Program-made: the position numbers and the translations under genes
Shown: in pieces, positions 14 to 61,915 of the stretch
Layout: every line of letters begins with the position of its first letter
How positions within the stretch are numbered: the stretch's first letter is position 1
DNA from: Haliclona indistincta
Taxonomy: Eukaryota > Porifera > Demospongiae > Haplosclerida > Chalinidae
Reading direction: 5' to 3'
DNA: 64,000 nt
Assembly: GCA_964017065.1 (NCBI GenBank)
Contig: OZ024783.1
Span: 7,232,391-7,296,390 of the forward strand
The notes under the pieces: model-generated
Seen by the model: the letters and a program-made list of their open reading frames with translations, nothing else
Told to the model about the DNA's origin: nothing
The model's database searches: none

Positions 14-3000
14 GTAATCTAGAGCCACGATTTGTTGCTACTCTTCTTCCACCGATTGTGAGCACACTGCTCCATTACCCGAGCTACAGTACCTGTCTCC
101 CTTCAGATGGAAAGGTTTGCATGCATGGTGCTCAGCAGCCTTCCAAGTATCTGTCATCTAATGTTTGGATAATGCCTAGTTTTTTGTTGTAAACTCGTGC
201 ATGTGTAGATCAGCAATGAACCGTCTTTACTTTGATGGATGGTTGGTTAATGGTGGTTTCATGTGCTGCAGCATAGCCCTGAGACACTATGTGTCTACTT
301 GTTGAGCGAGATGACTGCTAGTCTACCAGAGGGCAGCTCTGCTTGGTTGCAAGCAATGAGACACCACTCACTGATAGCCATGGTCATGAGAATAGCCGAT
401 GAGCTCACGAGGGTAAGAAGAGAGAGGGAGAGAGATAATTATAAAGAGAGAAGAGAGTGAAATTGAAAAGCTAAGAACAGGATAACTGGAGTGGTGTAGT
501 ATTATTCTGTTATTCAAATGCAGAATCTTACAAGGCCAGATTTAGTAGAAGCCATTCTCTGCTACTGCCTGTCACTCTCCTCATCAGCTGTAGTAAGTTA
601 AATTGTATGTAAATGCTTCTTAAGAATTAAATGTAACTTTCATAGACAGCAGAGGCATTGGTTGTTAATGGTTTGTCTCGTGTGCTGTGCTTGCCGATGT
701 CTAATATGGTTACAATGAAACTGTCGTCTACTTCAGAATCTAAAGTAAGTCCCAACTATCAAAAATTTTTAACACTACAAAATTTCGATCACCATTTACT
801 TTTCAGTCACTGTAATTTGCTCATCCATTCATCCACTCACTCTCCCATCTATGTAGTTCTTATAATCCATCAACTTGAACATACACTCACTTATTCACTG
901 TCACATTCTTGCTCTTTCAGGATCTGTTCAATGGAGGTGGTGTGTCATCACGGCCTCCAATGGACTGGTCTAGAGTGTGGCTGGCTGCACTCCAATTAGT
1001 GACACGACTGTTGTCTACACTGAGACACAACTACCTGCCACATGCTCTGAACTTCATAGGAGCTAACCAGGAGAGAATAGCTCAGGTTAATGAGCAAAAT
1101 GTACACTAGCCATAATCTGTACACAACAAACCACTGAATTACTGGTCTATAGCAGACACTATATTCCTATTGGAGTGAATCATGGATCCATATTTTTCAT
1201 TTTCCAGTGTCTGGATATATTTGAGACAACTCGTCACATGGACAGTCTCAATGAGACCGTGTCGGTCTGTTCGCTAGTGCAGGAGCTGGCTCACTATCGA
1301 CAGCGATGGAGACTGACTCTACCACACCTTCACGACACAGTGATAGTGAGTCATGAGTAAAGTAAATCATAAAGCAGGTTTCTTATCTCTAAACTGCTAC
1401 CTTCATTACAGTGTTCTAGTTTTGTATTCGATTTCAGAAAGCACAAAAATGACTTGATATTAGAGACTCAAAATGCTGAATAGGCCTATAACATTTCAGT
1501 ACAGCATCTAAAACGCACATTTTATTATCTTTGCGGTGCTATTATGCATGAGCAATGGTCTATTGTGATTATAGGAGAAGCAGCTGGTATTGCTCAATGG
1601 AACAGTGTCACTGCTCAACAAACGGAACAATCTGAAGCACATCATAAAGGCAAGGGCCTCTCGTCTATCTATCACAGGCTGTCACTCTCTCTTGTTCATT
1701 TCAGACTATGGATTCCCGGGGCCTGTTGCCGGCAGAGGTCATCCACGAGGCACTCAAGGTCAGAGGGAAGAGGAGAAGTTCATCCGGCTTTGGGCAGTAC
1801 ACATTCTCTTCCGATGATGACTCATGGATCATCTGTAGCTCAGCATATCACCAGCTACAAGAAAAGTGAGCAAAAGAAAATTTCTCTTAATAATTATACC
1901 CATTGCATGATATAATTTATTATCCATACGCTTTTCAAACCGCAATACTGGTTTTGTTCACAAAATTTAGTGCTTGAAATCTTGTGCACATCCTTGAAAA
2001 TATCCTGGGTCTGTCATACTATAAGTTCAGCCCCTGACATTTAAAAGTTGCATTCTTTGTCTGGTGTTCTTGTTATGCTCAATTTTATTTATTTTTACTT
2101 ATTTTCTGTCTCCTTGTGTCCAGTCTACTCGTCATCATGACCTCATGTCTGACCACTCTCAATCACTACTCTCCTCCTGTATCTGACCTGTTCATGTGTT
2201 CAGTGAGTACAGCACGTTGTCCATTTCTTTTTGCTCATGAAATGCATTCAAATTATGGTACACCAGCTAACAAAACGGTTAAAGTTGAACATTTGTATAG
2301 TAATCACTGTGGGCTATAGCAATTGGCTTTGCCTTGTACTTTATCAGCCACTTGACTATGATGCCCCTTGCATAAAGCACTTTTCTCCAAATTTAATCTC
2401 TTTCTAGCTATCAAACATACCTACATGTACCTGCAAGTAGCTGTTGCTTGTGTGACGTTTTCTAACATCGTGCTCTAGTTTGCTCATCCTGTTGATCTCT
2501 CTGCATGGCACTCTCTCTTTCGGCTCAACTTCATCATGGACCCCACTGGCTCTCCTTCACTCACCACACTCACTCAGTGCCTCACCGTAGGAACCACTCT
2601 ATTAAACAAAGTGAGACACACAACACATTTATCGGTATCCTTCAATAGAAGCTATAAACAACAGAATACATTCAAATCACATGAGTACTATTGTGACGTC
2701 TATTGTTCATTACCTGAGAGTATGCAACCGTCAATGCAAGCAACCGTCAATATGCCTATGAGCATGCAACCGTCAATATGCATATGCCCATCAATTGTGT
2801 TTGGCATTTTCTACATCACAAGTTTATTTATGGAGCAGAAATCATTAGAGCTGCAATGCTAATAATATTCATTGTTTTGTAACAATAATCATGACTGCAG
2901 TGATGATAATCACTGCTGTGTTTAGGTAAACTATTACCCAAACAGTGCTCAATACTGTCCGGGCATATTGCTGGTTGCATACATACTCTCAGGTAATGAA

Positions 3001-3667
3001 CTCTTGGTGACGTTTTATGGAGTTATACCACATGTGCATGATTCTTTTTTGTCTCTAGTTGGAAGGGCACAAATCAAGCTCTGCACATCTGTTATCTAAG
3101 AGTCCCTCATCCAGTAGTGTCTCTCCGATTCGCTCACCCAACACACCCGGTCTTTATCTCCGTTCTTCTGACGTCTCCTCACAGCAGAAGCGCTCAGAGA
3201 TTCTCTTCATGCTTGAGCAAGCTGTCATTCTTCTCATGTCGCAATCATTGAAGTGTTTGCTGGACGGAGAAGGCATGAATGTTAGGGAGAAACAAATATT
3301 GAGAAAGGAACTTATCAGCGAGCTCGTAAGAACACATTCTATAACTTAAGTTCTCTTTCCTATGCACATAAACTTAACAGAGAAATTTTGCTGTCAATAT
3401 TCCACAAAAATATTGTCATTGCCCAATTTTTGACTATCGAATTTTTCCTTTTTTTCTCAGAGTCATTTCAATCAGTCTCTGCTGTTCAATTTCACAAGGA
3501 AGGGAGCTCCATCACCTCTCTCCGGCCACCGTACTTCATTCTCTGTCAGTGGTCAGTCACTCCAGGACAGCGTCTCTGGTCGAGCTAGTACTCATAGCTT
3601 CAGTGACTCCATCGAACAAGGCATTTTCAAACTAGCTGACTCGTTTGTAAAGAGCCTCAATAGATAG
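14..3667 (+). CDS. NUP188: NUP188 C-terminal part, copy A (12 exons, 5' end outside window)
   Basis: This is the C-terminal part of nucleoporin NUP188, a large alpha-solenoid scaffold subunit of the nuclear pore inner ring. Exons read from the sequence: 14-114, 272-412, 524-592, 646-744, 921-1085, 1208-1345, 1575-1649, 1705-1865, 2124-2202, 2479-2610, 3059-3325 and 3461-3667. They total 1634 nt, which after two phase bases gives 543 codons with no internal stop. Recognition rests on the family's C-terminal order: a LNFIGANQERIAQ block, an LPHLHD block, a KRSEILFMLEQAVILLM block, a LRKELISEL block, then a basic KGAPSP stretch and a final LADSFVKSLNR. The intron after 1649 has a GC donor. No AATAAA was noticed directly after the stop. 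The match to human NUP188 is from memory; a search would settle it. Confidence 0.88.
2697..2800 (+). repeat. Short imperfect repeats in a NUP188-A intron
   Basis: Three near-copies of a GCAACCGTCAATATGC-like word lie in the intron before exon 11 of copy A. The corresponding intron of copy B lacks them, so the repeat arose after the duplication or was lost from B. Confidence 0.5.
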
Positions 3668-3780
3668 CAACTTATAACACAACTAATAATTGTATGCTAA
3701 CAACATACATTGTAATAATTATGTACATTTGTAACTGATACAGTTTTTGTCAGAATCGCAATGAGCAGGTAGCTGTGACG

Positions 3781-7141: not shown

Positions 7142-7371
7142 AATTGTGATTGCTGTACAGAAATCCTGTATACATGTACATGCACCTGCAGTTGCTGTGT
7201 TTGTGGAATGGTGGATAGTTGTGTTTGTGGATAATGTGTCATTCCACCGAGGCATCTGCACCTTAGGTGCTTCATTCCTTTTATGTGTTTACTACAGGGA
7301 ATTATCTGTTATGTCAGTTATTACAAGAGGTCAAGTCTGTGCTGAGCAGTGTTGGCTCGATTTCTATGTCA

Positions 7372-8416
7372 ATGGAGACTCTCCGACAGAGTAATGAGAG
7401 TAGCATGGGCTGTAGCAGTGAGCTTGCTGTCTCTATACCTCTAAGTGCAGTATCAATCATTGCTTATGTCTTGGCTTTGGGAGTTCTGTTATACTACAAG
7501 ATGTGGCGTTCATTCATCTATCGTTTGGTGCTTTATATGTTTGTATCGCTGATTTTCTTCTCTGTGAGTGTAATAATTAATGCATCTGTTGTCATTTTGT
7601 TGAAAGAAGCAAGTGAAGTCAATACTACTACAAATGCCACTCACGGGAGTGACATTGCAGTTCTTAGCTTTCTCTTTATGCTTGTGACTAGCAGTCTAGC
7701 AAGTGCCTATATGCTTGTGACTTGTATAACTGTGTGTATATATCTTATGGCTCTCCACAACTACCAGTTCACGTATAAATCTGATCTTTGCTTGCTTGTT
7801 TTCTCCATCCTATCTAATGGTTGTTATAACTTTGACACTGATCTGGGGTGTATTACACCATTACGATAGAAGAGGTTTAACAATATTAAATATATTTGCT
7901 TTGCCATTTCTTGTCAACGTTGTGTTCACAGCACTGACATTGGTGCCACTGTGCTGTAGAGCTTGTGGATATAACCTGTGTATGAAGACTGCTGCTACAA
8001 TAGAGAGTCACAGGAAGGCACTGAGAGAGATACTACCATTCTTCATTCTTGTAGTGCCTTCTTTCTTGGTCATCGTGGTGTGGATAGTGTGGTTTTCTAT
8101 TAAGGCAATCTTTATTACTGGTGTAAGCAACTGTGAAGCTGATTTTAACGACATCTTATCTGCGCTCGTCGCTTTAGGACTATTAAATGCTGTCTGTTTT
8201 GCTCTGCATCTCTTCTTTATAAGAAAGAATCTCAAAAAGCTACGGGGCAAGAAGAAAGCATCAAGAACTACTAATTATAACCAGCACCGCACCCATCGTA
8301 CAACTGTGTATACTAGTGAAGGAATATCTGAGACATGTAACACTGTATCTCCACTCGTGAGTGAGAGTGGGGAGGACACACGATATCTTCTCCGGAAAAG
8401 CAATCAATCAACATGA
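7372..8416 (+). pseudogene. Orphan seven-TM receptor, frameshifted in TM4
   Basis: Seven hydrophobic segments can be read: TM1 near VSIIAYVLALGVLLYY, TM2 near LVLYMFVSLIFFSVSVI, TM3 near AYMLVTCITVCIYLM, TM4 near YLMVVITLTLIWGVL, TM5 near ALPFLVNVVFTALTLV, TM6 near LPFFILVVPSFLVIVVW and TM7 near LVALGLLNAVCFALHLFF. A basic, serine-rich tail ends at the TGA closing at 8416. TM1-TM3 read in one frame and TM4 onward in another, with the switch near 7796-7810, so one base is gained or lost. The N-terminus has an NES sequon and the second loop has NTT and NAT. Met at 7366 or 7372 is a weak start; a 5' exon may be missing because a mobile element ends at 7276. Its topology is GPCR-like, but I do not recognise the subfamily. 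A sequencing error is an alternative to a true pseudogene. Confidence 0.65.
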
Positions 8417-10603: not shown

Positions 10604-13600
10604 GTAACCTAGAGCCACGATTTGTTGCTACTCTTCTTCCACCGATTGTGAGCACACTGCTCCATTACCCCAGCTACAGTAACTGTCTCCCTTCAGATGG
10701 AAAGGTTTGCATGCATGGCGCTCAGCCGCTGCGTGAGACAAAGCCTTCCAAGTATCTGTCACCAAATGTTTGGATAATGGCTAGTTTCATGTTGTAAACT
10801 CGTGCATGTGTAGATCAGCAATGAACTGCCTTTACTTTGATGGATGGTTAATTAATAGTGGTTTCATGTGCTGTAGCATAGCCCCGAGACACTGTGTGTC
10901 TACTTGTTGAGCGAGATGACTGCTAGTCTACCAGAGGGCAGCTCTGCTTGGTTGCAAGCAATGAGACACCACTCACTGATAGCCATGGTCATGAGAATAG
11001 CCGATGAGCTCACAAGGGTAAGAAGAGAGAGAGAATGAGACAGGAAGAGAGAGAGAGAGAGAGAGGGAGGGGGGAGAGAGAGAAAGAGTGAGAGAGGTAG
11101 GAAGGAAGGGAGAGAGAGAGAGAGAATTATAATGAGAGAGAGATGAGAATGGAATTTAAAAGCAAAGAACAGGAAAACTGGAGTGGTGTAGTATTTTCCG
11201 TTATTCAAATGCAGAATCTTACAAGACCAGATTTAGTAGAAGCCATTCTCTGCTACTGCCTGTCACTCTCCTCATCAGCGGTAGTAAGTAAAATAAAGTT
11301 TATTTCAATACTTCTTATGTAACTTCCTTAGACAGCCGAGGCATTGGTTGTTAATGGTTTGTCTCGTGTGCTGTGCTTGCCGATGTCTAATATGGTGACA
11401 ATGAAACTGTCGTCTACTTCAGAATCTACAGTAAGTCCAAATCACCAAACATCAACATTACAAAATTTCAATCACCATCATTTTACTTTTCAGTCACTGT
11501 AATTTGCTCACTCATTCACTCACTCTCCCATCTATGTAGTTCTTATATAACCATCAACTTGAACATACACTCACTTATTCACTGTCACATTCTTGCTCTT
11601 TCAGGATCTGTTCAATGGAGGTGGTGTGTCATCACGGCCTCCAATGGACTGGTTCAGAGTGTGGCTGGCTGCACTCCAGCTAGTGACACGACTATTGTCT
11701 ACACTGAGACACAACTACCTGCCACATGGTCTGAACTTCATAGGAGCTAACCAAGAGAGAATAGCCCAGGTTTGTGAGCAGAACATACATGAGCTCTTTA
11801 ACTGCACTCATGCAACAAACCACTGAGTTACTTACTGCTCTATAGCAGACACTAGTCCTAATTGAGTGAATCTTGCTTTATACTGTACACAACAAACACT
11901 GTTCTATAGCAGACACTAGTCCTGATAGAGTGAATCTTGCTTTATGCTTTATACTGTACACAATAAACCACTGTGTTACTGGTCTATAGCGGAAACTAGT
12001 CCTGAGTGAGTGAAACTTTATACTGTACACAACAAACCACTGAGTTACTGCTCTATAGCAGACACTAGTCCTGATTGAGTGAATCTTGCTTTATACTGTA
12101 CACAACAAACCACTGAGTTACTGCTCTATAGCAGACACTATATTCCTATTGGAGTGAATCATGGCTCCTTTTTTTCCAGTGTCTGGATATATTTGAGACA
12201 ACTCGTCACATGGACAGTCTCAATGAGACCGTGTCAGTCTGTTCGCTAGTGCAGGAGCTGGCTCACAATCGACAGCGATGGAGACTGACTCTACCACACC
12301 TTCACGACATAGTGATAGTGAGTGATGAGTAAATAAATCACAGAGCAGGTTTCTTATCTCTAAACCTACTGCCTTCATTACAGTGTTCTGCTTTTGTGTT
12401 AAGACTTCAAAAAGCACAAAAATGACTTCATATTAGAGACTCAAAATGCTTGATAATAAGAATAAGCCTATAAATTTCTGTGATTATAGGAGAAGCAGCT
12501 GGTATTGCTCAATGGAACAGTGTCACTGCTCAACAAACGCAACAATCTGAAGCACATCATAAAGGCAAGGACCTCTCGTCTATCTATTATTACGAGCTGT
12601 CACTCTCTCTCTTTTGTTCATTTTAGACTATGGATTCCCGGGGTCTGTTGCCGGCAGAGGTCATCCACGAGGCACTCAAGGTCAGAGGGAAGAGGAGAAG
12701 TTCATCCGGCTTTGGGCAGTACACATTCTCTTCCGATGATGACTCGTGGATCATCTGTAGCTCAGCTTATCACCAGCTACAAGAAAAGTGAGCAAAAGCA
12801 AAATTTGTCTTATTATATCACATTGCATGATTACCCGTATGCTCTTCAAACCGTAATGCTGGTTTTGTTCACAAAATTTAGCGCTTGAAATCTTGTGCAC
12901 ATTCTTGAAAATATCTTGGGTCTGTCATACTATAAGTTCACCCCTTGTCATTTAAAAGTGAATGGTTCCAATCCATTAAACTACTCTCTTGCCCATTCTT
13001 GGTCTAGTGTTATGCTCAATTTTACTTATTTTTGTCTCCTTGTGTCCAGTCTACTCGTCATCATGACCTCATGTCTGACTACTCTCAATCACTACTCACC
13101 TCCTGTATCTGACCTGTTCATGTGTTCAGTGAGTACAGCACATTGTCCATTTCTTTCTGCTCATGGAATGCATACAAATTATGGTTAAAGTTGAAGTTTG
13201 TAGTGATCACTGTGGGTTATAGCAATTAGATTTGCTTTGTGGTTGATCAGCCACTTGACTATGATGCCTAAAACCCTTGCCTAAAACCACTTCTCTCCAA
13301 ATTTAATCTATTTTAGCTATTAAGCATACCTACATGTATCTGCAAGTAGCTGTTTCTTTTGTGTGACGTATTCTCACTTTGTGCTCTAGTTTGCCCATCC
13401 TGTTGATCTCTCTGCATGGCACTCTCTCTTTCGGCTCAATTTCATCATGGACCCCACTGGCTCTCCTTCACTCACCACACTCACTCAGTGCCTCACCGTA
13501 GGAACCACACTACTAAACAAAGTGAGAAACACAACACATTCTCGGTATCCTTCAATGGAAGCTATAAGCAACAAAATACATACATATCACACGTGTACCA

Positions 13601-14650
13601 TACACTATTGTGATGTCAAGAGTTCAAGAATACATACAAGTTATACGTGTACCATTATCATTGCCGATATGTAGGGATGACCTCGAATCCCTACAATTTT
13701 TAGTTTTTTTATTAAAACTTTTTTACTTTGCTTTACACTATTGTGATGTCAAGAGTTCATTTACCTGAGAGTATGCAGCAGCCAATATGCCCAACGGTGT
13801 TAGGCATTTTCTACATCGCAAATTTATTTTTAGAAAGCAATAGAGCTGCAATGCTAATGATATTCATTGTTTTGTAACAATATTCACGACTGCAGTGATG
13901 ATAATCATCGCTGTGTTTAGGTAAACTTGTGCAAAAGAAAATGCCCAATACCAGCATATTGACAGTTGCATACTCTCAGGTATTAAACTCTTGATTGTGC
14001 ATGATTTATTCAAAGCATTTTTTGTCTCTAGTTGGAAGGGCACAAATCAAGCTCTGCACATCTGTTATCTAAGAGTCCCTCATCCAGCAGTGTCTCTCCG
14101 ATTCGCTCACCCAACACACCCGGTCTTTATCTCCGTTCTTCTGACGTCTCCTCACAGCAGAAGCGCTCAGAGATTCTCTTCATGCTGGAGCAAGCTGTCA
14201 TTCTTCTCATGTCGCAATCATTGAAGTGTTTGCTGGACGGAGAGGGCATGAATATTAGGGAGAAACAAATATTGAGAAAGGAACTTATCAGCGAGCTCGT
14301 AAGAACACATTCTATAACTTTACTTCTCTTTCCTATGCACATAAACTGAATAGAGAAATTTTGGGGTCAATATTCCACAAAAAGAATATGTGATTGCAAT
14401 TTGATACCAATTTTTGACTATCGAATTTCTTCCTTTTTCTCAGAGTCATTTCAATCAGTCTCTGCTGTTCAATTTCGCAAGGAAGGGAGCTCCATCACCT
14501 CTCTCTGGCCACCGTACTTCATTCTCTGTTAGTGGTCAGTCACTCCAGGACAGCGTTTCTGGTCGAGCTAGTACTCATAGCTTCAGTGACTCCATCGAAC
14601 AAGGCATTTTCAAACTAGCTGACTCGTTTGTAAAGAGCCTCAATAGATAG
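10604..14650 (+). CDS. NUP188: NUP188 C-terminal part, copy B (12-exon duplicate)
   Basis: All twelve exons of copy A are repeated with identical lengths and splice sites: 10604-10704, 10877-11017, 11215-11283, 11332-11430, 11605-11769, 12180-12317, 12490-12564, 12627-12787, 13050-13128, 13390-13521, 14032-14298 and 14444-14650. They give 543 codons without a stop, and introns and 3' flank also align. Exon differences from A are few (for example YSNCLPSDG against YSTCLPSDG). Immediately upstream lie a POT pseudogene and the 7TM gene, not more NUP188, so this copy lacks its 5' part. It could serve as alternative 3' exons for a transcript starting in copy A, or be a young unexpressed duplicate. 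The intron after 12564 again has a GC donor. Confidence 0.85.
11030..11150 (+). repeat. GA-rich microsatellite in a NUP188-B intron
   Basis: A (GA)n tract with GGGAGGGGG and GGAAGGAAGG interruptions spans about 115 bp. The matching intron of copy A (413-470) has only about 45 bp of it, so it grew or shrank after the duplication. Confidence 0.85.
11805..12170 (+). repeat. About 73-bp minisatellite in a NUP188-B intron
   Basis: Four to five units containing CTCTATAGCAGACACTAGTC and ACTGTACACAACAAACCACT stand head to tail. Copy A holds a single unit at the same place (about 1110-1190). The expansion is confined to one intron and does not touch exon 6. Confidence 0.85.
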
Positions 14651-15665
14651 CAACTTATAACACAACTAATAATGACAATCACCTGCTAACAATAATTATG
14701 CATTGTAAGATGTACGTTTGTAACTGATACAGCATTGTCAAAGAGCTAATTTCTAATACTTTTACCGCATTTCCTGTGATTTTTTGATGATCACTCATTA
14801 ATTCTGAAAGATAAAACTGTATCTACATGAACGACCGCAAGACGATTAAAAAATAGAGCCTGGGTACGAGGCTAGCCTACAAGGAGGCATGGTCGCACTA
14901 AACTGCAAGTGAAAAATGAGAAGGAAGACTGGTAAATAACATGCAGTAGGGGCCTGCATGGGGACAGCCCTTCAGATGCAGGGTATTTCCAGATACAGGG
15001 TATTTCCAAATTTATTATGCATTTTGTGAAAGGATTTGGTACATTTGATGCCTAGACTCAGTGGTCAAAGTTGCCACTACAACTACATGTACGACTCACT
15101 CCAAGCAGTTGCTCCAAGTTGTCAGTGTTTTTAGTTTACGTTAAAATCATAATACGCAATTCCCCTGCTATTCTTACGGCATTTGCCTGGCTGTACACAC
15201 TGTACGTAATTATAAAGAATCAATCATGTACCTCACCAACTTTCTAAGTTTCACCATGCAGCAATTCTATACTTAACACTATCATAGCTCCAAACTATAA
15301 CAATTCATAACCGGTTATGGCGTCTTTTTATGGAATTACAAGCCCCTTATTGAGCCGATTTTGATAAAGTGCTTTCGTTCTTGAGTTATGACTGACTCAC
15401 CTTGACTGACGGCCATGTTGTACCACTCTGACTACAAAAGCGGCCATAGTTGACTACCTAGCTAGCTAGGTACTACTAGAAAGTGGTCAGCATTTTCCTG
15501 TCTTCTGCATGGTTAGCAGTGCAGTTTCAAACTAGCTACAGCCGGTTGACACTAGCTGCAAACTCCTGGCCTGCTGCAATCCCCAACTAGGGAGCAGCTT
15601 AGTGCATGCTAACTCTACAATAATATTATGTGCATGACACGCCGAAATTCGTTCATTCACTCTAT
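14651..15665. other. Intergenic sequence, no gene seen
   Basis: After the NUP188-B 3' flank (matching copy A to about 14735) there is AT-rich sequence with no supported exon. ATCTACATGAAC- and CTAGCTAGCTAG-type words are scattered through it. Confidence 0.5.
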
Positions 15666-23429: not shown

Positions 23430-25007
23430 TCATTCTGCATGTGAATCCAGCACTGCACCACCTGTGCTCGAGTTTGATATAGTCTGTTGTAAATTTAAAA
23501 ATAGACAGCAGTGACGTACACAGTATAACGTGTACTTACATGTACCAATTGCTTGTTCAACTGAGACTCCAATGTTTTGATTTTATTTTCAAGCATTGCT
23601 ATTTTGGAATATTCGGTGATGTGCTGGGTTGTATCTAGTTTAGATGAATTGTTAGTCTTTCCATCATAATCAGGTTCTTTGTACACCTTCCACATCTAAA
23701 TTACAGTAAAAGATCACAAGTACATTGTGTGGAGCACTTGGCATCTAAGTAGGCTCTTAGTACTGTGGATAATGATACTATACAGTAGTGCATGCATGTA
23801 TAGTAGTTACCTTAGGAGCAAAGTTAGCAATAAGAAAACTGGTTGATATAGTGAGTAATCCAGTAGAGATGCAAGCTTCACTGATGTTCTTAAACTGATT
23901 CACTGTAAATGATACTGATATCAGCAACACTAGAATGATGCTTGATATGTAGATGATGGCCGTGACCTCTTTTGTTTCATTTAGTGCTTTTATTTTCACT
24001 TTACGTGTCTGCACAGCCAGTATGATGGCAATGATATGTAGACCACCAAGATAGACAAAGATGAATATTTGCCATGGAATAGATGCACTGCTGAGACATT
24101 GAAAAGCCTTGTATTGTATAAACAGATCAAATTCCTGAATAAAACAGAATCAAGTTAAGTGCCATGTAAATTTTTCGACAAGCGAATGCTTAGATTCAGA
24201 GAAATCTTATTATGTGTTTATAAAGCACTTCTCAAAATAATATGAACCTTATATAATTGTTGAATCATGCGCTTAGAAATCAAAAGAACTTAAGGAATTA
24301 TTTGAGACAAAATATTTAGCAAATAAATTATCACAATGTCACACTGTCCTCCCAGTGAATACACTATGAATTTATCATCGCTCGGTTATTATTGTCTTCG
24401 CCATCACGCAAGATGCAACTATTGAGCCTAAAGTCTGCAATACAACATGCATTAAATCCACTGCGTTGCTCATTATCATCAACCAGTACTGGAGATGGGA
24501 GTACTTGAGGAATGGCAAACCCAATAGCAATAATGACAGCCATTACAGTCGCAATAGTGAGGATGAGAACCATCATGTACCAGTCTGAAATAGCCTGCAT
24601 CAGGTGCAATATAATTATACACATGCATGCGGGTATTGGAATAAGTACCCGCTTATTTGGTGCTGGATTGTGGAAGATGTAATAAATCCTCCACATTTTG
24701 GACAAAATGGCAGCAAAGGCTATTGTATACCCTATGTTACCAAGCCACACGGGAACCTGTAGTATTAGGGAGACACGGTAGTGTCTCCCTATGTAGGGAT
24801 GAACGAGAAAACAAGATGGCGGCTACATACAATGTATTAGCGTTCAAACGCTGATATTTCGCCTGGTGATGAATTTTATACGTCCATAGATACTTAGATC
24901 TGCTATCTGGCGTTGCCCCATCTTACAGTAGCAAGGAGAGTGCTCGAAATTGTTACTAAAGTGACGAACCTGGAAACGGTGAAAATCGACTTTCGTCATC
25001 TTCGTTT

Positions 25008-31000: not shown

Positions 31001-33240
31001 CACTCATCATGTGATGTGGTGTATATCAATGCTATACTATCTCATGCAAAATTAATGTATGGCGGTATAGTTACAATAGCTAAAATGACTTACTGCGTGA
31101 TTACGTTATTAATTGCTTACTTGAGAGAGCCCAAAACTAGACGATATCTCGGCTATAGGTTCAGTGGCTGTTGTACATCCAGCACCAAATATAGCAATGA
31201 CAGTTGTTTCATTATTGACCACATAGTTCAGAAATGTTCTTATTGAAGGAGTCCTGGAGCACTATTGTAAAAGAAACAACTGCTGCACGCAAAATACATG
31301 GAGTGGTTATTTCAAACACGTATAAGCCAAAAAGCCATTAAAATCATTAAGTTTAATGTAAGGGAACAGGAACAAAACACTTTGTATAACCAATAATACC
31401 TGCACGCATGCAAGAGTCAAAAGATGCAATGCTTTTGGCCTCTAAGTATAAAATAACTTCCTGGTGAGGTAATAACCATTACTGAGCACTGCAATGTGTT
31501 ACTAGCAGTCCACTTCTACAATACATAAATAGTGCAGTGTGAGGGGCATTACTACCAAGTACATTGTGTGTGTAGCCAATTGTTCTAAATAAATTATGAC
31601 ACTGTGCAATCTTTATTCAACATCGAAGGTTAAAATCACCCTTTAACTGACGTTTGCAAGATTGGTGCTTATTTAGAGAACATAGTAGTTTATTTTGTCA
31701 GGCAAAGGTTGATATTGCTACAGAAGTCTTATGTGTTTTTGAGTCATTAGGAAACCTTACCTGGGGTATAACCTGCAAAACTATAATTTTGTTGTAATTT
31801 TTGTCAGGTGCGTGTAATTAGCTTTGCATGTAAATTTCACTAGCTCGCTCACAATGCTCTGAAAAAATTTAATACTAAATAAAATCGCAACTCAAAACTG
31901 GGTGTACAATACATACATATAATATTATTATGCCAACAACTAGTCCGCAGACAGATGCAATGTATGTGAAAGAATTGTGGGTTTGATCTATAGCGGTATT
32001 AGAAGCATGAAACTTGGCAAGCTATAAAGCAATTTGAAGCAATTTGAGATGTGAAGCCACTTCATATTTGACCTTTGTCGAAATCTAGTAGACTATATTC
32101 AAAAAATCCAGCATACCAGAGTTTCATCAAAAGTAGTCAAAATTGGTATTATGTTAAAGCTCGTCTTATAAAGAGTATTTTGAAACTTAAATCATGCATG
32201 TTTTTATAGCTCATTCTCACCAAAGTTATGGCTGAATTTATAAACCATAGGTAAACATACCACAAGATGTAGTTTCCTCAATGAACACTTTTTACATGTA
32301 TTTTTTAGTTGCAGTAAATCAACTTTAACTTTTGATCAGAATGAGCTATAAACATGATTTAAGTTTCAAACACTCCTTATAAGTTGAGCTTTAACATAAT
32401 ACTACTCTTGATGAAACTTTGCTACGACAGATTTGTTTCGAATAGTTAATTAATTGTTAGATTTCGGCAAACTGAAGTGGCTCCATGTCTCAAATTGCTT
32501 TATACAATAGCTTGCCAAGTTTCATACTTCTATGATAAAACCCACAATTCATCACATATCTGCCTGACTAAACTGATAACACATCTGCAAATATCAACAC
32601 ATATCTGCCACATATTATTGCACATGCCTGACTAAAAAATGTGTATGAATATCGTAAAGTTGGTCCAGCTATGACATCCTGTAGTTTCACCCAGTCCCTC
32701 ATTCAAGACATCCCTGCTTGCTAATTGCATTCCATTGCTGCTTTATAGCCCATGCAATGAGTTCAATGACACTGACACTACTGTGGAACCTCTCTAAGGA
32801 GGACACTATTGGGACCAAGTTAATTATAGAGAGAGTGTCCTCTAGTAAGGAGTTCATTATACATTAAGGGGGTTATATTTGGGATTCAGTGAGTGTCTAT
32901 TATAGGAATGACACCCCGCTAAGAGGGTTTCCACTGTGTACCGTGGACAGTAATACACGCCATGGTATCATAATTTTACAACTAATACGTGTACGTACAA
33001 TACCTGTGAGTCTTTTGCAACAAACTGCAGCTTATATCCTGGGAGTAACGATTGATCACTGTTTATCGTCTCCAGCGCCATCTCGACTGCAGGTATCGAC
33101 CCGGATGTAAGAAACAGTCCAGTAAAACCAGTTAAGTATAGGAAAGTAATATTTTTATCTTCTGTAGAATTTGTGCAGCTTGCGCTTGAAATCACTGACA
33201 GCAGCAGGAACAACCTACTATAGCTCCAGACAGACAGCAT
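23430..33240 (-). CDS. GABA-B-type metabotropic receptor (class C GPCR), about 16 exons
   Basis: Exons (minus strand): 33240-33004, 31261-31121, 30933-30763, 30402-30304, 29979-29914, 29853-29650, 28958-28722, 28620-28551, 28411-28325, 28026-27882, 27612-27486, 24756-24649, 24594 to about 24490 (3' boundary uncertain), 24134-23811, 23695-23540, 23483-23430. Phases agree through exon 12. Exon 1 has a signal peptide (about 22 residues). Exons 1-9 form the periplasmic-binding-like ligand domain (SGSIPAVEMALETIN, PGYKL, FGAGCTTATEPIAE, AYDAAWALAFG). Exons 10-14 hold seven TM helices with the GABA-B-like VVRLTSPKLNYFIVLGA and GNIGYTIAFAAILSKMWR blocks. Exon 15 has a leucine heptad coiled coil (IAMLENKIKTLESQLNKQ), used in this family for dimerisation. 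Length is about 775 residues. No cysteine-rich domain is seen, as is usual for GABA-B. Exon 13 could instead read through to a stop at 24366, giving a truncated form. Confidence 0.85.
25545..26292 (-). mobile_element. Family 1 element, full-length reverse copy 6
   Basis: From AATGAAGCACCTAAGGTGCA to CTCCGCCCACCGAGGCATAA, about 750 bp, with the palindromic tip and (CTGT)n-type tract at the right. This is the best uninterrupted example of the family in the window. Confidence 0.8.
26324..26970. mobile_element. Element with GGGGCGAGCCTGAGC ends carrying exon-like sequence
   Basis: Inverted 15-bp ends (GGGGCGAGCCTGAGC at 26326; GCTCAGGCTCGCCCC ending 26970) bracket about 645 bp. On the minus strand a frame of about 135 codons (26799-26392) contains RQRIGDAWIDFYK, a good GTAAGA splice-donor match, and GSDNEQQIHLITELYDWSDN. 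That part looks like real protein sequence, but I cannot name it. It may be a captured gene fragment or the remains of an element-encoded protein. Confidence 0.5.
31945..32569. mobile_element. Fold-back MITE in GABA-B intron 1
   Basis: The left arm (GTGAAAGAATTGTGGGTTTG ... CATGATTTAAGTTTC-type words) and right arm (ending AAACCCACAATTCATCACAT) are diverged inverses, about 270 bp each. It lies in the 1.74-kb first intron; the rest of that intron has no exon that I can support. Confidence 0.7.
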
Positions 33241-35212
33241 GATCGCAACGCCGACCTGGCCGTAAATAATTAATAAATTATTATCGATGCAAAATTTTGC
33301 TCTGGCATAAAAAATATTTGCTAACTGCGAAATTTACTCATCGTCGTTATGTTTACAAGACAAAAATAATGTATATACGTTTTTTTCCTTGAAGCTACTG
33401 TATCCTGCATGCCAATAAGTATACAACTTTTTCTCTTACTAACTCACAGAATGTGTGATCTCCTAGATCACTGCGGGGAGCTGAGAGAATACACTTGGTC
33501 ACCAGAGCAGCTAGCATCTTCATTATATCACACTCTCTTTGTAGGAAGAGTCATGATTTGCATGTGTGAGACATCACCCTAATAATCAATTTTCAACCTC
33601 ATCGCATGTAAAGTGCATGCACTGCTGAAAAACGCTTTGCATGCAACGGCTTGCACAATGACCAATTATGTTATTGTATATGCATGCTCTTGTACAAGTG
33701 ATATGATTTGATTGCTTGCCTGCAAAATATCATACTAGATTTGTGAAATAACATTGAGCTCTGCAGCAAAATAGTTTGGAGGCAAGCTTGATGTGATACC
33801 TCTACGTATAAGCTTGTACTATACGCTTGTTTAAAATTTTTCTTATTATGTATGATCAGCAATTATATCAGTTGAGTGTGTTCATGTTGTTATCATGCAA
33901 TCAGTGATAATTATGTATAGAAGTTGCATTTTCACAATGTCTACCATTCAGAGCACTGTCTGAAAGAAATAGGCCTGCCGTTTGTTGCCTGCATGGCTGC
34001 ATGTTTGTGTGTCAATTACTGATATCATACCGTTATCACAAGTAGTAATGTTTTCATGTTCATAGATCAGTTGTAGTTATTTTCCCACCATGCCTATCAT
34101 TCACGATGAGATTTATACAAGTCAGTACAGCAACTGCATGCATGTATGCATAAAGTATGAGTATAAACATTATACATAAAATTTATACTGTGTATATAAT
34201 AGTAAATATAACTATACTACAGTACAATAATTATGATCAGTATTATTATTATTGTCATTGCCGCTATAGGCAATGATATGTAGGAATGTAACTTTATTGC
34301 TGTTGTGCATGATGCACTACATGTACCGTTATGTGAAAGTGTGATTAGCCATTCAGTGGAAGTCCATACCATAATAGTTCAGTATGCAACTGAATAATTA
34401 AATGGAGTTAGCTACGTATATATAGTTACCTGCATAGCTAAACAGTTACATATCTATTAGCAAAATAGTGAGAATATTCATGATACTAGACAATCATATT
34501 CTGATAAGATTATAACATACATTATTTTTACGGTAATAATGTTTTTCTGCCTATATGGAAGTATGTTTAACGAGAATTGTGAAAATACTGTGGTTAGAGT
34601 CAGACAAACAGAAAGTGATTGTAGCAAAACAAATTGTGTTTATTTAAGAACACTAGACTTTCACCTATTTATCTTGTGTTACTACTATTAGCAGATAGTG
34701 ATGGCATCATAATCGCTAAAATAATTATTACTTTAGGCCTGGTATGAGCTGACGCTCTTCTGCTCTAAGAGCAGAAATGCTCTTCTGCTCTGTTCACTAA
34801 AACTTCTGGGTTTTTTTCCCAGCTACATGTAGCTATACATGTAGTACGAGACAAGCTGGTCAGCTCTTTCCACAGATGAGCGCTGAGAGCTGCACCTGAA
34901 TCGAGTAATACTTTTGAACCACATGTTGTACAAAATTAGTGGTTCACACTGATCTGTTGCAGACTCGCCAAGTCTCTCAACACTTTAGTTGAACACTATA
35001 CTTCATGTGACGGTACTAGGTGCTTGCGGGTACTTTATGTTTTTTTAGTTGATCTCTGAGTAAACCACAATAGCAACTTCTATCAAGCAAAAAAATTGTA
35101 TACTGTGTTATATGTAATTCGATCATCTGCATGCATGTGCTGAAAGTCAGCCTGTGGCATTCTTATATTACCATAGGTCGCAAATTTCTCGAGAGTTCTC
35201 CTAATTCATGTA
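33241..35212. other. Intergenic: GABA-B 5' flank and AT-rich DNA
   Basis: This holds the presumptive promoter of the minus-strand GABA-B gene. No TATA box or CpG cluster was clear enough to call. From about 34980 it begins to match the upstream regions of the tandem membrane-protein genes (CTTCATGTGACGGTACTAGG, TTGATCTCTGAGTAAACCAC). No other gene is seen. Confidence 0.5.
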
Positions 35213-35345: not shown

Positions 35346-35587
35346 ATCATCGCACGCATACACATGACAGGTTAAATAATTATTATGCAAACAGGACTGA
35401 AAATGACACATGGCTTTACAATTTTTTGTTTATAGGGTTGCAATGCTCACTTATGTCAACAGTGTCAATCCATACTCATGTAAATTAAAAACAGGATAGC
35501 TTTGTTTTCACAACTAATTATAATTTGGTCTGATTAGCTACCCCACATACATCATGTGAGCCTGAATGCATGACAGACTTCAAGTCA

Positions 35588-35951
35588 TGCAGTCATTGGA
35601 GGTCATCATGATAGTGCTGTATGCAGTGTGTGCTTTGCTCGGTGTGTTAGTACTGGTCTTATTCGTCATCATTGCTACATATCTATGGCTCAAAAGAAGA
35701 AAGTCAAAACCTTTGAAAATACATGTATGCAAGATGTGATATTTATAATCAGTTGTAGAGTACATAAACCAGCTGTACAAGAAAGCAGTACTACTGTAGT
35801 TCAAGACATAGCTGGTCCATCTGATGGTCATGATCAGATCATAAATGAAGAGTACATAAAAGTGATTCCAGGAAGTGAATTCTTTCAGATGAATAAAAAT
35901 GTGGCGTATAAAGTGGTTGTTTCAAACTGCGCACAACAGGATGAAGAATAA
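35588..35951 (+). pseudogene. Tyrosine-tail membrane protein family, copy 1 (dead)
   Basis: The TM segment (SLEVIMIVLYAVCALLGVLV ... KRRKSKP) and the tail (NEEYIKVIPGS ... NKNVAYKVVVSNC) are both present. The signal peptide and ectodomain coding sequence are deleted: CAAGTCATGCAG joins directly to TCATTGGAG. The splice donor has changed from TTGTAAGT to TTGAAAAT, so the TM and tail lie in different frames without a usable junction. This is a non-functional copy at the 5' edge of the array. Confidence 0.8.
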
Positions 35952-38697: not shown

Positions 38698-39194
38698 ATG
38701 GAAGCTGTTGTATGCATGTGTTCAATTGCAGCCTTGGTTAGCAAAACTGTAGCTCAAAGTTATGATGGAAGTGGTCAAAGCGTTCCACCAACAAGGAGCA
38801 TCCCTAGTTTAACTTCCTTAGAGGTCATCATGATAGCGCTGTATGCAGTGTGTGCTTTGGTCATTGTGGTAGTACTGGTCTTATTCATCATTGCTACATA
38901 TCTATGGTTTAAAAGAAGAAAGTCAAAACCATTGTAAGTATATGCAAGATTTATACGCATCTGTTTCAATGATTTATTAGTTGTAGAGCACATAAACCGA
39001 CTGTACAAGAAAGCAGTGCTACTGTAGTTCAAGACAGAGCTGGTCCTTCTGATGGTCATGATCAGATAATAAACGAGGAGTACATAAAAGTGATTCCAGG
39101 AAGTGACCACCTTCAGATGAATAAAAATGTGGCATATAAAGTGGTTGACTCAAACTGCACACAACAGGATGAAGAATATTATGATTATATTTGA
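38698..39194 (+). CDS. Small type I membrane protein with paired tyrosine motifs, copy 2
   Basis: Exon 1 (38698-38933) and exon 2 (38987-39194) join in frame to 147 residues. Signal peptide MEAVVCMCSIAALVSKTVAQ; ectodomain of about 25 residues rich in Ser, Gly and Pro; TM segment EVIMIALYAVCALVIVVVLV and on to TYLW; stop-transfer KRRKSKP. The cytoplasmic tail of about 70 residues has NEEYIKVIPGS and NKNVAYKVV, so two YxxV motifs 14 residues apart, and a terminal EEYYDYI. No family is recognised. The signal peptide start is chosen because an upstream ATG is out of frame and the same Met is conserved in copy 3. It is likely a plasma-membrane protein. Confidence 0.75.
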
Positions 39195-40602: not shown

Positions 40603-41118
40603 ATGGAATCTGTTGTATGCATGTGTTCATTTGCAGTCTTGGTTAGCAAAACTGTTGCTCTAAGTGATGATGGAAGTGGGGAAAGTGTTCTACCAACAAG
40701 GAGCATCCCTAGTTTAACTTCCTTGGAGGACATCATAATAGTGCTGTATGCAGTGTGTGCTTTGCTCGGTGTGGTAGTACTGGTCTTATTCATCATTGCA
40801 ACATATCTATGGTTCAAAAGAAGAAAGTCAAAACCTTTGTAAGTATATGCAAGATATGATACGTATCTATTTCACTGATTTATCAGTTGTAGAGCACATA
40901 AACCGACTGTACAAGAAACCAGTACTACTGTAGTTCAAGACAGACCTGGTCCATCTGATGGTCTCGATCAGATAACAAATGAGGAGTACCTGCAAGTGGT
41001 TCCAGGAAGTGAACTCTTTCAGATGAATGAAAACGTAGCGTATAAAGTGGTTGACTCAAACTGCCCACAACAGCACAAAGAATATGATTATGTTATTAAT
41101 TTTGTGGCGAGAGACTAA
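40603..41118 (+). CDS. Small type I membrane protein with paired tyrosine motifs, copy 3
   Basis: Exons 40603-40838 and 40893-41118 join in frame to 153 residues. Signal peptide MESVVCMCSFAVLVSKTVAL, short ectodomain, TM segment DIIIVLYAVCALLGVVVLVL to TYLW, then KRRKSKP. The tail carries NEEYLQVVPGS and NENVAYKVVDSN, then a different C-terminus (EYDYVINFVARD) because the reading frame passes the position of copy 2's stop. No charged residue is seen in the TM core. It sits about 550 bp upstream of the SLC37 gene on the same strand. Confidence 0.75.
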
Positions 41119-51259: not shown

Positions 51260-52032
51260 ATGGGAACTATTCTGTGGTTGTTTGCTGCTGCCTTAGTACT
51301 GCTTGTTAGAAAGACTGTCGCTCGTGAAATTAGTGAAAGTGTTCTACCAACGTTGAGCTCTCTGAATACTACTCATTTGAGGGTCATAATCGTGTTGTAT
51401 ACAGGATGTGCCTCTCTCATTGTTCTGGAGTTTTTGCTACTGATCATAATAGAGTGGATCAAGAGACGGCCATTCAAACCTAAGTAGGTTATTCTTTCCA
51501 CTATAAATACTTGGGCTGATATTTACAGCATACTCCGCAATACAGGGTACCAGTGCTGCAAAGCATTGATGTAAGAGGAACTCAAGAAGAAACTAACCTG
51601 TCACCATCTACAGATATGGATCAGGTGTATGAGCAAACAATACCAGAAAATGAGCTGCAAGTAAACGAGAACGTGACGTATGAAATGGTTGCTCAAAACA
51701 GACTACCAGTGCTGCAAAGCATTGATGAAAGAGGAAGTCAACAAGAAACTAGCCTGTCACCATCTACTGATATGGATCAGGTGTATGAAATGATACCAGA
51801 AAATGAGCTGCAAGTAAACGAGAACGTGACGTATGAAATGGTTGCTCAAAACAGGCTACCAGTGCTGCAAAGCATTGATGAAAGAGGAACTCATGAAACT
51901 AGCCTGTCACCATCTATTGATATGGATCAGGTGTATGAAATGATACCAGAAAATGAGCTGCAAGTAAATGAGAACGTGGCGTATGGAATGGTTGCTCAAA
52001 ACTACCCACAACAAGAATATAATATTGTTTAA
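51260..52032 (+). CDS. Small type I membrane protein with three paired tyrosine modules, copy 4
   Basis: Exons 51260-51483 and 51546-52032 join in frame to 236 residues. Signal peptide MGTILWLFAAALVLLVRKTVA; ectodomain of about 20 residues with an NTT sequon; TM helix VIIVLYTGCASLIVLEFLLL and on to IIIEW, with a glutamate in its middle; stop-transfer KRRPFKPK. The 160-residue tail is three head-to-tail repeats of about 50 residues (LQSIDERG ... SLSPSTDMDQV) each closing with a module YEMIPENELQVNENV-x-YEMV. The first module has YEQT; the last has YGMV; the C-terminus is QEYNIV. A short ectodomain, an acidic residue in the TM and three YxxI-x12-YxxV units recall ITAM adaptors. Function is inference; no homologue is recognised. 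Confidence 0.78.
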
Positions 52033-53330
52033 TAAATTAACATACTGTGATCAGTGTGTTGTGCTAGTGTCATACTGAATTTTTTTGCATTAATATTTTG
52101 ACGTTGAAATTTACATACTTATTATAGACGCATTGAGTACAATATTAATGCATTGAAGAGCATATCATAAAAATTAATGTTGTGTTTATGTATTCTCTTT
52201 GCGCATATAGTAGGTGTTACAATGTGGTGACAAAACAAAAACAAAATGATTAGTGCTAAAATTATGTTGTGAATGATAAAATCTAGCCAGCAGTCTCATG
52301 CTCTCGAGTCCTCAAGCAATACTTTTATGAGACGATTATATTATGTGCTGCACCTACTGGTTTAGACATGCTGCAGTATGCTAGCAATTAAAGCATGACT
52401 AGCCTGCCAGTTCCAGATCCAAGGTAGCAAGAGCGGATATCTGGCTGCAAGCTACACAGACAGTCATGTTTTCAGCATGACTTGAGCAAAGTGCATTGTA
52501 ATTTAGCAAGGTGGATAACTTTATGGAGAGTTTAAATCTAAGGGTTTTTATTAGCATGTAGCGCATTTCTTTTCAAATGGACATGTTTTGCTGTACATTT
52601 GAAATATTTTGATTGCATCCAGGGTTTTGCTGATTAAATACTGTTATGCATAAATTACAGTATTTGAATGATTGTTGTGAATACAATTATGAAATACTGT
52701 AAAAACCATGATGAGTCCTTCACTCCATTAAACTGAAAACGTCACTCCAATGACCAGTAAAGCTGAGGTTTGTTAGGGTCACTCTCAAAAGACTAACTGG
52801 AATGGAGCCTGACCATTGAAAGGTAGTGAAGTTTACTCTATGCATGGGCATGGCAATTTTTGTTTAGTTCTGGTATACGTAGGTTTGAGGCAATGCGCAT
52901 TGCTAGATAACAGTCAGAGCAAAATGATGGCATTTCTTGAGGCTAGCTATAGCTATAATATATAGAGCTATTAAACAACCAGATTGCCAGTACTATTGTT
53001 ACCTTATACGGTCATGTTTCTCAGGGTTTAATCATAAGTTTATTCCATAAAAGGAATCGCTATTTTAAACTTGACAGCCATTTTTGAATATGTTCCTGGT
53101 ACATATCAAAGAGAATTATTCATAATGCTGAGTAAACACTGTGGCATATGTTTCACTCCATTTTTGAAGTGAAGAACTCACCATGGTTTCTACAATTAAA
53201 ATTGTAAACATTATCATATTTAAAATAAACATCAGCAACCATATTATAGCAAACATTAATTTTTTGGGCTTTGATGCCTACAATTGCATGCAACCATATA
53301 TGGCATTCATGACAGACTCTATTCAGCAAA
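52033..53330. other. Intergenic, upstream region of array copy 5
   Basis: Downstream flank of copy 4, then a block aligned to the region upstream of copy 4. About 52690-53270 has no counterpart there, so it was inserted here or lost from the other unit. No gene is seen. Confidence 0.55.
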
Positions 53331-54136
53331 ATGGGAAATATTGAGTGGTTGTTTGCTGCCGTCTTAGCACTGCTTGTCAGTAAGACTGTCGCTCGTGAAA
53401 TTAGTGAAAGTGTTCTACCAACGTTGAGCTCTCTGAATACTACTCCTTTGAAGGTCATCATCATCGTGTTGTATACAGGATGTGCCTTACTCATTGTTCT
53501 GGAGTTGTTGCTAGTGATCATAATAGTGTGGATCAAGAGATGGTCATTCAAACCTAAGTAGGTTATTCTTTAATTTGCCACTATAAATACTTGCGCTGAT
53601 ATTTACAGCATACTCCGCAATACAGGGTACCCGCAGTGCTGCAAAGCATTGATGAAAGAGGAACTCAAGAAGAGACTAACCAGTCACCATCTACTGATAT
53701 GGATCAGATGTATGAGCAAACAATACCAGAAAATGAGCTGCAAGTAAATGAGAACGTGGCATATGAAATGGTTGCTCAAAACAGGCTACCAGTGCTGCAA
53801 AGCATTGATGAAAGAGGAACTCAACAAGAAACTAGCCTGTCACCGACTACCGATATGAATCAGGTGTATGAAAATTACTTGGAAATGATACCAGAAAATG
53901 AGCTCCAAGTGAATGAGAACGTGGCATATGAAATGGTTGCTCAAAACAGGCTACCAGTGCTGCAAAGCATTGATGAAAGAGGAACTCAACAAGAAACTAG
54001 CCTGTCACCATCTACCGATATGAATCAGGTGTATGAAAATTACTTGGAAATGATACCAGAAAATGAGCTCCAAGTGAATGAGAACGTGGCATATGGAATG
54101 GTTGCTCAAAACTACCCACAGCAAGATTATATATAA
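53331..54136 (+). CDS. Small type I membrane protein with three paired tyrosine modules, copy 5
   Basis: Exons 53331-53557 and 53626-54136 join in frame to 245 residues. Signal peptide MGNIEWLFAAVLALLVSKTVA; short ectodomain with NTT; TM helix VIIIVLYTGCALLIVLELLL and on to VIIIVW, again with glutamate inside; KRWSFKPK. The tail has three repeats; modules two and three are expanded to VYENYLEMIPENELQVNENV-x-YEMV or -YGMV, adding a tyrosine each. It ends QQDYI. It is about 85-90 percent like copy 4 by eye, so it is a recent duplicate with its own changes in the modules. Confidence 0.78.
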
Positions 54137-61489: not shown

Positions 61490-61915
61490 TACAGATCAGA
61501 TAACACTTACTTGTTACAGAAACAAAAGAACAGATAACACTTGTGCCTAGCATGTCTGACTTGCTACAGAAACAAAGAACGGATAACACTTGTGTCCAGC
61601 ATGTCTGACTCACTACAGAAACAGAGAACGGATGGGTACAGATAACACTTACTTGTGTCCAGCATGTCTGACTCGCTACAGAAACAAAGAACGGATGAGT
61701 ACAGATAACACTTACTTGTGTCTGGCATGTCTGACTCGCTACAGAAACAAAGAACGGATGAGTACAGATAACACTTACTTGTGTCCAGCATGTCTGACTC
61801 GCTACAGAAACAAAGAACGGATGAGTACAGATAACACTTACTTGTGTCCAGCATGTCTGACTTGCTACAGAAACAAAAGAACGGATGAGTACAGATAACA
61901 CTCCAGCATGTCTTC
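61490..61915 (+). repeat. 63-bp minisatellite, about 6 units
   Basis: Units containing GCTACAGAAACAAAGAACGG and CTTGTGTCCAGCATGTCTGA stand head to tail; early units are shorter. Since 63 is divisible by three, several frames stay open on both strands and give artificial 21-residue repeats. Confidence 0.9.

Follow-up and report, generated by a model that had tools for sequence, protein, structure and literature searches.

We analyzed a 64-kb window (the whole stretch of DNA under study) from the genome of the sponge Haliclona indistincta, which holds a cluster of five copies of one gene family, all on the + strand. Copies 4 and 5 (51260-52032 and 53331-54136) are predicted to encode a membrane protein with a tail of three tyrosine modules. 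Copies 2 (38698-39194) and 3 (40603-41118) are built alike but with a single tail module, and copy 1 is a probable pseudogene. The explanation that fits the family best, held tentatively as a little less than evenly probable, is a lineage-specific and probably convergent phosphotyrosine scaffold with the plan of the transmembrane adaptor proteins (TRAPs), predicted to dock an SHP2-type phosphatase and, at its variable tyrosines, other SH2 proteins. The original prediction, made for copies 4 and 5, had proposed an activating adaptor with immunoreceptor tyrosine-based activation motifs (ITAMs). The best-conserved site of the tails looks like the phosphatase (inhibitory) docking type rather than this activating type. 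A scaffold with sites of the immunoreceptor tyrosine-based inhibition motif (ITIM) type is preferred, and the activating ITAM adaptor is demoted.

Tyrosine Motifs of the Tails

The signature V-x-Y-x-x-V is invariant in 9/9 modules of the family, copy 1 included. Valine at -2, the tyrosine, and valine at +3 are constant, and positions -1, +1, and +2 vary. In an alignment of the nine modules (copy 1 in), 11 of the 47 gapless columns are invariant, and 7 of these 11 lie within the 14 columns around the invariant tyrosine (hypergeometric P 0.009, a generous value, since the modules are related and do not make nine independent observations). The real contrast behind this conservation is that of the two copy groups, 2-3 and 4-5, at a synonymous distance (dS) of ~0.8 to 1.9. 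The ITIM pattern is [I/L/V/S]xYxx[I/L/V]. It was matched 3, 3, 1, and 1 times in copies 5, 4, 3, and 2, which is once per module in 8/8 modules of the intact copies (9/9 with copy 1).

The upstream tyrosine is variable. It stands in YIKV or YLQV in copies 1-3, in YLEM in modules 2-3 of copy 5, in YEMI in modules 2-3 of copy 4, and in YEQT in the first modules of copies 4 and 5. The spacing first described, YxxI, 12 residues, and YxxV, was found only in modules 2-3 of copy 4; the same modules of copy 5 read YLEM-x13-YxxV, and in either copy module 1 has YEQT instead. Likewise, of the valine or methionine expected at +3 of the second tyrosine, only valine was found there (9/9 modules), the methionine being located at +2 in copies 4-5.

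The ITAM consensus YxxL/I-x6-8-YxxL/I (excerpt of PMC5383719) was matched by 0/4 tails of the intact copies 2-5, and its widened x6-12 form also by 0/4, which rules out strict ITAM membership. The ITAM label could not be kept, as neither pattern occurs and the invariant residues (-2 Val, Tyr, +3 Val) are an ITIM-type signature.

Coding Constraint

The family tail is protein-coding sequence, and between copies 4 and 5 it is under constraint. Their tail exons differ by 18 changes at 99 synonymous sites and by 13 at 381 nonsynonymous sites, with a ratio of nonsynonymous to synonymous rates (dN/dS) of 0.17 (Fisher P 2e-6); gene conversion between modules may affect such counts in a tail made of repeats. 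The coding gaps between the two copies measure 3, 3, 12, 3, 12, and 3 nt and are multiples of three in 6/6 cases. The noncoding gaps measure 18, 4, and 5 nt on the 5′ side, 6 nt in the intron, and 2, 2, and 3 nt on the 3′ side; 3/7 are multiples of three, and the first (18 nt) and last (3 nt) are close to where the alignment begins and ends.

In exon 1, which bears the transmembrane (TM) glutamate, 3.5 changes over 55 synonymous sites and 14.5 over 167 nonsynonymous sites were counted between copies 4 and 5 (dN/dS 1.39, P 1.0), so purifying selection was not detected between these two copies. Between the copy groups, exon 1 was constrained in 4/4 comparisons (P 0.006 to 5e-6).

Gene Models and Membrane Architecture

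The features of the cluster are as follows.

51260-51483, + strand: copy 4 exon 1, with signal-peptide-like segment, 20-residue ectodomain, TM helix, and basic juxtamembrane stretch
51428-51430, + strand: copy 4 TM glutamate codon (E57)
51484-51545, + strand: copy 4 intron, GT-AG, phase 2, 62 nt
51546-52032, + strand: copy 4 exon 2, three-module tail with 8 Tyr and 3 ITIM-type sites (Y120, Y171, Y221)
53331-53557, + strand: copy 5 exon 1, with signal-peptide-like segment, ectodomain with NTT sequon, and TM helix
53502-53504, + strand: copy 5 TM glutamate codon (E58)
53558-53625, + strand: copy 5 intron, GT-AG, phase 2, 68 nt
53626-54136, + strand: copy 5 exon 2, three-module tail with 10 Tyr, 3 ITIM-type sites (Y122, Y177, Y232), and 2 YxxM
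40603-40838, + strand: copy 3 exon 1, TM without Glu
40887-41118, + strand: copy 3 exon 2, one module with ITIM-type Y131; in-frame alternative acceptor 6 nt downstream
38698-38933, + strand: copy 2 exon 1, TM without Glu
38981-39194, + strand: copy 2 exon 2, one module with ITIM-type Y131; in-frame alternative acceptor 6 nt downstream
35587-35951, + strand: copy 1, probable pseudogene, read by eye

Both predicted genes, copies 4 and 5, were present where the original prediction had placed them, and at the sequence level their two exons can be joined in frame via GT-AG phase-2 introns to give proteins of 236 and 245 residues, respectively. The introns of copies 2 and 3 are 47 and 48 nt long, and each of these copies has two candidate acceptors 6 nt apart, both in frame. 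Copy 1 was called a probable pseudogene because it is without the signal-peptide part, its splice donor is altered, and its tail frame is, by eye, apparently unreachable from the TM part.

The exon 1 product of copies 4 and 5 consists of an N-terminal hydrophobic segment ending in KTVA, the ectodomain REISESVLPTLSSLNTT(H/P)L(R/K), a strongly hydrophobic segment, and basic residues. Counted from an inferred cleavage after TVA, the ectodomain is 20 residues long in both copies. It contains no cysteine, as had been predicted. The N-terminal segment is termed signal-peptide-like by its hydrophobicity alone, as given by a membrane-insertion scale and Kyte-Doolittle values. Copies 4 and 5 have one strong TM segment with a single Glu near its middle and a basic stretch after it; a further Glu is present in copy 4, at the helix's inner edge. 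The claimed architecture thus stands for the ectodomain of ~20 residues, the one TM helix with a near-central Glu, and the three tail modules, and is reduced to a signal-peptide-like segment with inferred cleavage at the N-terminus. A secreted repeat protein, a class named beforehand as one that would speak against an adaptor, was ruled out by the strong TM segment and the basic juxtamembrane stretch.

The TM glutamate was found in 2/4 intact copies (4 and 5); copies 2 and 3, and also copy 1, have Val at the same place, which rules out Glu as a family-wide feature. Since it is copy-specific, it is not the defining device of the family. The motif Y-x-x-C-A in the TM segment has its Tyr and Cys invariant in copies 2-5 and retained in copy 1, with the Cys situated in the outer part of the helix. 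We do not build the explanation on the Glu, because it is absent from copies 1-3 and because its exon shows no constraint between copies 4 and 5.

SH2 Proteins Encoded in the Genome

The figures for phosphatase and SH2 loci are minimum counts among the matches listed. SHP2-type phosphatases were found at three or more places in the genome. Two are adjoining intronless open frames on contig 9 (L016 and L017, 7.6494-7.6539 Mb) of 581 and 572 residues, with the order SH2-SH2-phosphatase and the sequence HCSAGIGRTG. In the PDB, the 581-residue frame matched SHP2 best (E 7.8e-192), and its N-SH2 domain is identical to that of human SHP2 at 76/106 aligned columns. The third locus, on contig 2, bears introns and comprises two SH2 pieces and phosphatase pieces. 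The two contig 9 proteins are ~76% alike. On one reading, the intronless pair, set beside the intron-bearing contig 2 locus, arose by retrocopying and then duplication.

Contig 8 carries two SH2 exons, with best matches to ZAP-70 and SYK, respectively, and kinase-like exons within 5 kb downstream; together they would form one Syk-type gene. The premise that readers of tyrosine motifs exist in this sponge was therefore confirmed, both by SHP2-type phosphatases and by tandem SH2 exons of the Syk type with kinase-like exons behind them. A further SH2 exon on contig 9 runs into ankyrin-like sequence, a Shark-like arrangement as judged by eye. Many clustered protein tyrosine phosphatase matches were present on contigs 3, 5, and 10 (among the matches listed), suggesting local expansions.

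The N-SH2 domain of SHP2 prefers Ile, Leu, or Val at -2 and a hydrophobic residue at +3 (excerpt of PMC10369915), and the invariant V-x-Y-x-x-V site agrees with this preference at both positions. In G6B-b, binding of the SHP2 tandem SH2 domains is higher with two phosphosites than with one (excerpt of PMC3501490), so the three modules of copies 4 and 5 could matter.

Distribution and Search for Relatives

In a search of the sponge's own genome, the family was found at the window cluster, which gave the only strong matches. The copy 4 tail matched 2 places, copy 5 exon 1 matched 5, and the whole of copy 3 matched 14 with E values no higher than 1: 9 family members in the window and 5 weak matches elsewhere (E 0.13 to 0.81). 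Among ~5.8 billion proteins no relatives were found, and only the window's own fragments were returned; candidates in this search were limited to proteins 0.55-1.75 times as long as the query that shared short words with it, so the search would miss a single-module exon (~70 residues) of a relative if this had been called as an open reading frame (ORF) of its own. This homology search favors a lineage-specific family, with the qualification that one-module relatives could escape it.

A control search with a sponge SHP2 returned 2392 matches at E 1e-60 or better among 7963 candidates scored. The best 120 of the 2392 included named sponge entries from Amphimedon (the first named), Dysidea, Ephydatia, and Oscarella, which indicates that the collection holds sponge proteins. 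Entry P0009 was 91% identical to the second SHP2 gene, the genome's own two proteins were returned at 100%, and Amphimedon queenslandica SHP2 (one copy compared) showed at most ~70% identity to the three SHP2-type loci.

A Pfam scan of the family proteins gave only matches under the families' cut-offs. An unconfirmed precomputed Pfam label, PF26450.2, is attached to P0001 and P0002, the ORFs that encode the tails in copies 5 and 4. No such sponge adaptors were found in the titles and abstract openings of the open-licence papers listed. The tyrosine-motif membrane adaptor family is apparently lineage-specific. Of the independent, lineage-specific receptor-adaptor system originally proposed, a lineage-specific membrane adaptor with tyrosine motifs is supported, and the ITAM label is not.

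Proposed Mechanism and Its Weighing

We propose that a Src- or Syk-family kinase would phosphorylate the tail and that the invariant tyrosine of each module would then dock a tandem-SH2 phosphatase of the SHP2 type. The variable upstream tyrosine (in YxxV, YxxM, YxxI, or YEQT, depending on the copy) and the C-terminal tyrosine may dock other SH2 proteins, and the three modules of copies 4 and 5 would raise valency. The TM glutamate was presumably gained or lost within the family and may let the protein self-associate or pair with a partner. Asp50 in the TM segment of DAP12 pairs with a receptor (excerpt of PMC11335228); by analogy, the sponge Glu may pair with a receptor or may favor self-association.

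Several observations weigh against this explanation. The composition-shuffle P values of the ITIM pattern in copies 5 and 4 (0.0105 and 0.0085) are inflated by internal repeats, and the single match in copies 3 and 2 was not significant (P 0.156 and 0.193). Tail constraint between the copy groups was significant in only 2/4 comparisons (P 0.004 and 0.047; the others 0.27 and 0.35). Between copies 2 and 3 it was not significant either (P 0.11 for the tail, 0.27 for exon 1), these copies being uninformative on constraint because they are too close to each other. The residues at -1 (A/T), +1 (E/K/G), and +5 (Q/S) of the invariant site are not among the SHP2 N-SH2 favorites listed in the PMC10369915 excerpt. 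The N-terminal segment is without a basic start, and that of copy 4 might be hydrophobic enough to stay as a second membrane anchor. Finally, sequence homology to any TRAP was not found in the protein collection and Pfam searches, so membership in the TRAPs is not claimed.

Syk and SHP2, which read immune tyrosine motifs, have a long history in animals; to our knowledge, little has been learned about their targets outside vertebrates. This sponge family, with its repeated tyrosine modules under constraint, is a candidate for a platform, early or convergent, on which the two enzymes would dock at the membrane. An Amphimedon Syk-family kinase serves as an outgroup in the excerpt of PMC9601881. 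We consider distinctly unlikely the fuller version, a convergent sponge family of immunoreceptor-style adaptors, in which SHP2-type proteins read the invariant site, Syk reads the tyrosine pair, and the one Glu-bearing pair of copies is receptor-coupled.

Alternative Explanations

An activating adaptor of the ITAM type, in which the Glu of copies 4-5 pairs with a Lys or Arg in a receptor TM segment and paired tyrosines recruit Syk, is unlikely, though the most probable of the alternatives. The tiny ectodomain and acidic TM residue recall DAP12 (excerpt of PMC11335228), and Syk-type SH2 and kinase exons exist in the genome. Relaxed tyrosine pairs (L/I/V/M at +3, spacer 6-14) occur 2, 3, 2, and 2 times in copies 5, 4, 3, and 2 and exceed composition shuffles in 4/4 tails (P 0.036, 0.001, 0.0045, and 0.004, the values for copies 4-5 being inflated by their internal repeats). 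Within modules there are 2, 2, 1, and 1 such pairs, with spacers of 13, 12, 14, and 14. The invariant and C-terminal tyrosines form one further pair each in copies 4, 3, and 2, with spacers of 8, 10, and 11; copy 5 has none, as its protein ends too soon past the invariant tyrosine. Judged by their spacers of 8-11, these C-terminal pairs resemble an ITAM more closely than does the module pair first named (spacers 12-14), and longer spacers are known from moesin (10) and FcRIIA (11) (excerpt of PMC6189171). However, neither the x6-8 nor the x6-12 ITAM occurs in any of the four tails, the Glu is found in only half of the intact copies, the upstream tyrosine position is not conserved, and the ectodomain has no Cys. 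Moreover, the six-frame scan for a partner, limited to ORFs of ≥60 residues in the 64-kb window, assigned no single-pass receptor with a TM Lys/Arg. It found 9 ORFs with a basic residue in a hydrophobic core, compared with 4.3 on average over 20 Markov shuffles, but uncharged hydrophobic ORFs (22 vs. 5.4) and acidic-core ORFs (12 vs. 2.4, copies 4 and 5 included) were also in excess.

That the protein is an endocytic adaptor, whose YxxPhi signals bind AP-2 and whose tyrosines act unphosphorylated, is quite improbable. YxxPhi sites number 5, 6, 3, and 3 in copies 5, 4, 3, and 2 (shuffle P 0.064, 0.0085, 0.037, and 0.054). Val at -2 is not known to be needed in AP-2 signals, yet this residue is invariant here; the ectodomain is also probably too short for cargo, which would have to bind through the TM segment.

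We give an equally low probability to a constitutive scaffold without a receptor, in which the TM Glu drives homo-oligomerization. Polar TM residues can have this effect, the Glu is near the center of the helix, and the invariant Tyr and Cys of Y-x-x-C-A could form a self-association face, but the architecture is unchanged in the copies that have no Glu. A fast-evolving tandem family that does not serve as an adaptor, such as a membrane protein with a repeat tail, partly decaying in copy 1, would agree with the lack of relatives among ~5.8 billion proteins, the pseudogene-like copy 1, and the exon 1 dN/dS above one between copies 4-5, and is very improbable in view of the strong tail constraint between these copies and the invariant tyrosine signature.

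Other Features of the Window

Upstream of the cluster, class C G protein-coupled receptor-type exons were noted on the - strand at 23778-24822 and 32968-33333. The 7tm_3 family scored over its cut-off at 23778-24149 and 24364-24822, and an ANF_receptor start scored below its own. Overlapping open frames at 7267-8416 (+ strand) contain several hydrophobic stretches, without a Pfam match over cut-off, and possibly belong to a multi-pass receptor. A 63-bp tandem repeat lies at 61588-61902, with a 225-residue stop-to-stop frame through it on the - strand. A segmental duplication links 137-3690 to 10742-14673; its pieces are 94-99% identical and lie ~10.6-11 kb apart. No RNA families reached the gathering score within the window.

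Comparison with Known Systems

In the vertebrate receptor-coupled adaptors CD3-zeta, FcR-gamma, and DAP12, the tiny ectodomain and multiple tyrosines are the same as in the sponge family, and the acidic TM residue is shared by copies 4-5 only. They differ in that the sponge copies are without the ITAM consensus and without an ectodomain Cys. The acidic residue of CD3-zeta is in an outer helix position, whereas the sponge Glu is located mid-to-inner helix. The atypical ITAM of moesin likewise has paired tyrosines with a spacer longer than usual (10 residues; excerpt of PMC6189171), but moesin is a cytosolic FERM-domain protein.

LST1, with its short ectodomain and two ITIMs binding SHP1/SHP2 (excerpt of PMC8111073), is closer. 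Its LST1/A form combines an ectodomain that is very short, and in mouse bears an N-glycosylation motif, with a single TM segment and ITIMs; according to the same excerpt, it differs by a dimerizing ectodomain Cys, a palmitoylation site, and a length of only 97 residues. It has two ITIMs; copies 4-5 have three each, and copies 2-3 have one each.

A short extracellular segment, a single TM segment, and a long tail with several tyrosine sites define the TRAPs (excerpt of PMC2803307), and LAT, LAX, SIT, TRIM, PAG, LIME, and NTAL share this plan with the sponge proteins. In the same source, LAX, SIT, and TRIM are without palmitoylation sites, like the sponge copies: the CxxC palmitoylation motif, present only in LAT, LIME, NTAL, and PAG, was not seen by eye in the proteins of copies 2-5. 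SIT binds Grb2 and inhibits T-cell receptor signaling (excerpt of PMC3177817). TRAPs are vertebrate lymphocyte proteins, and the sponge family differs from them in its near-identical repeated modules. Convergence is the likeliest history of the family, and its nearest architecture appears to be that of a TRAP of the LAT/SIT/LAX/LST1 plan.

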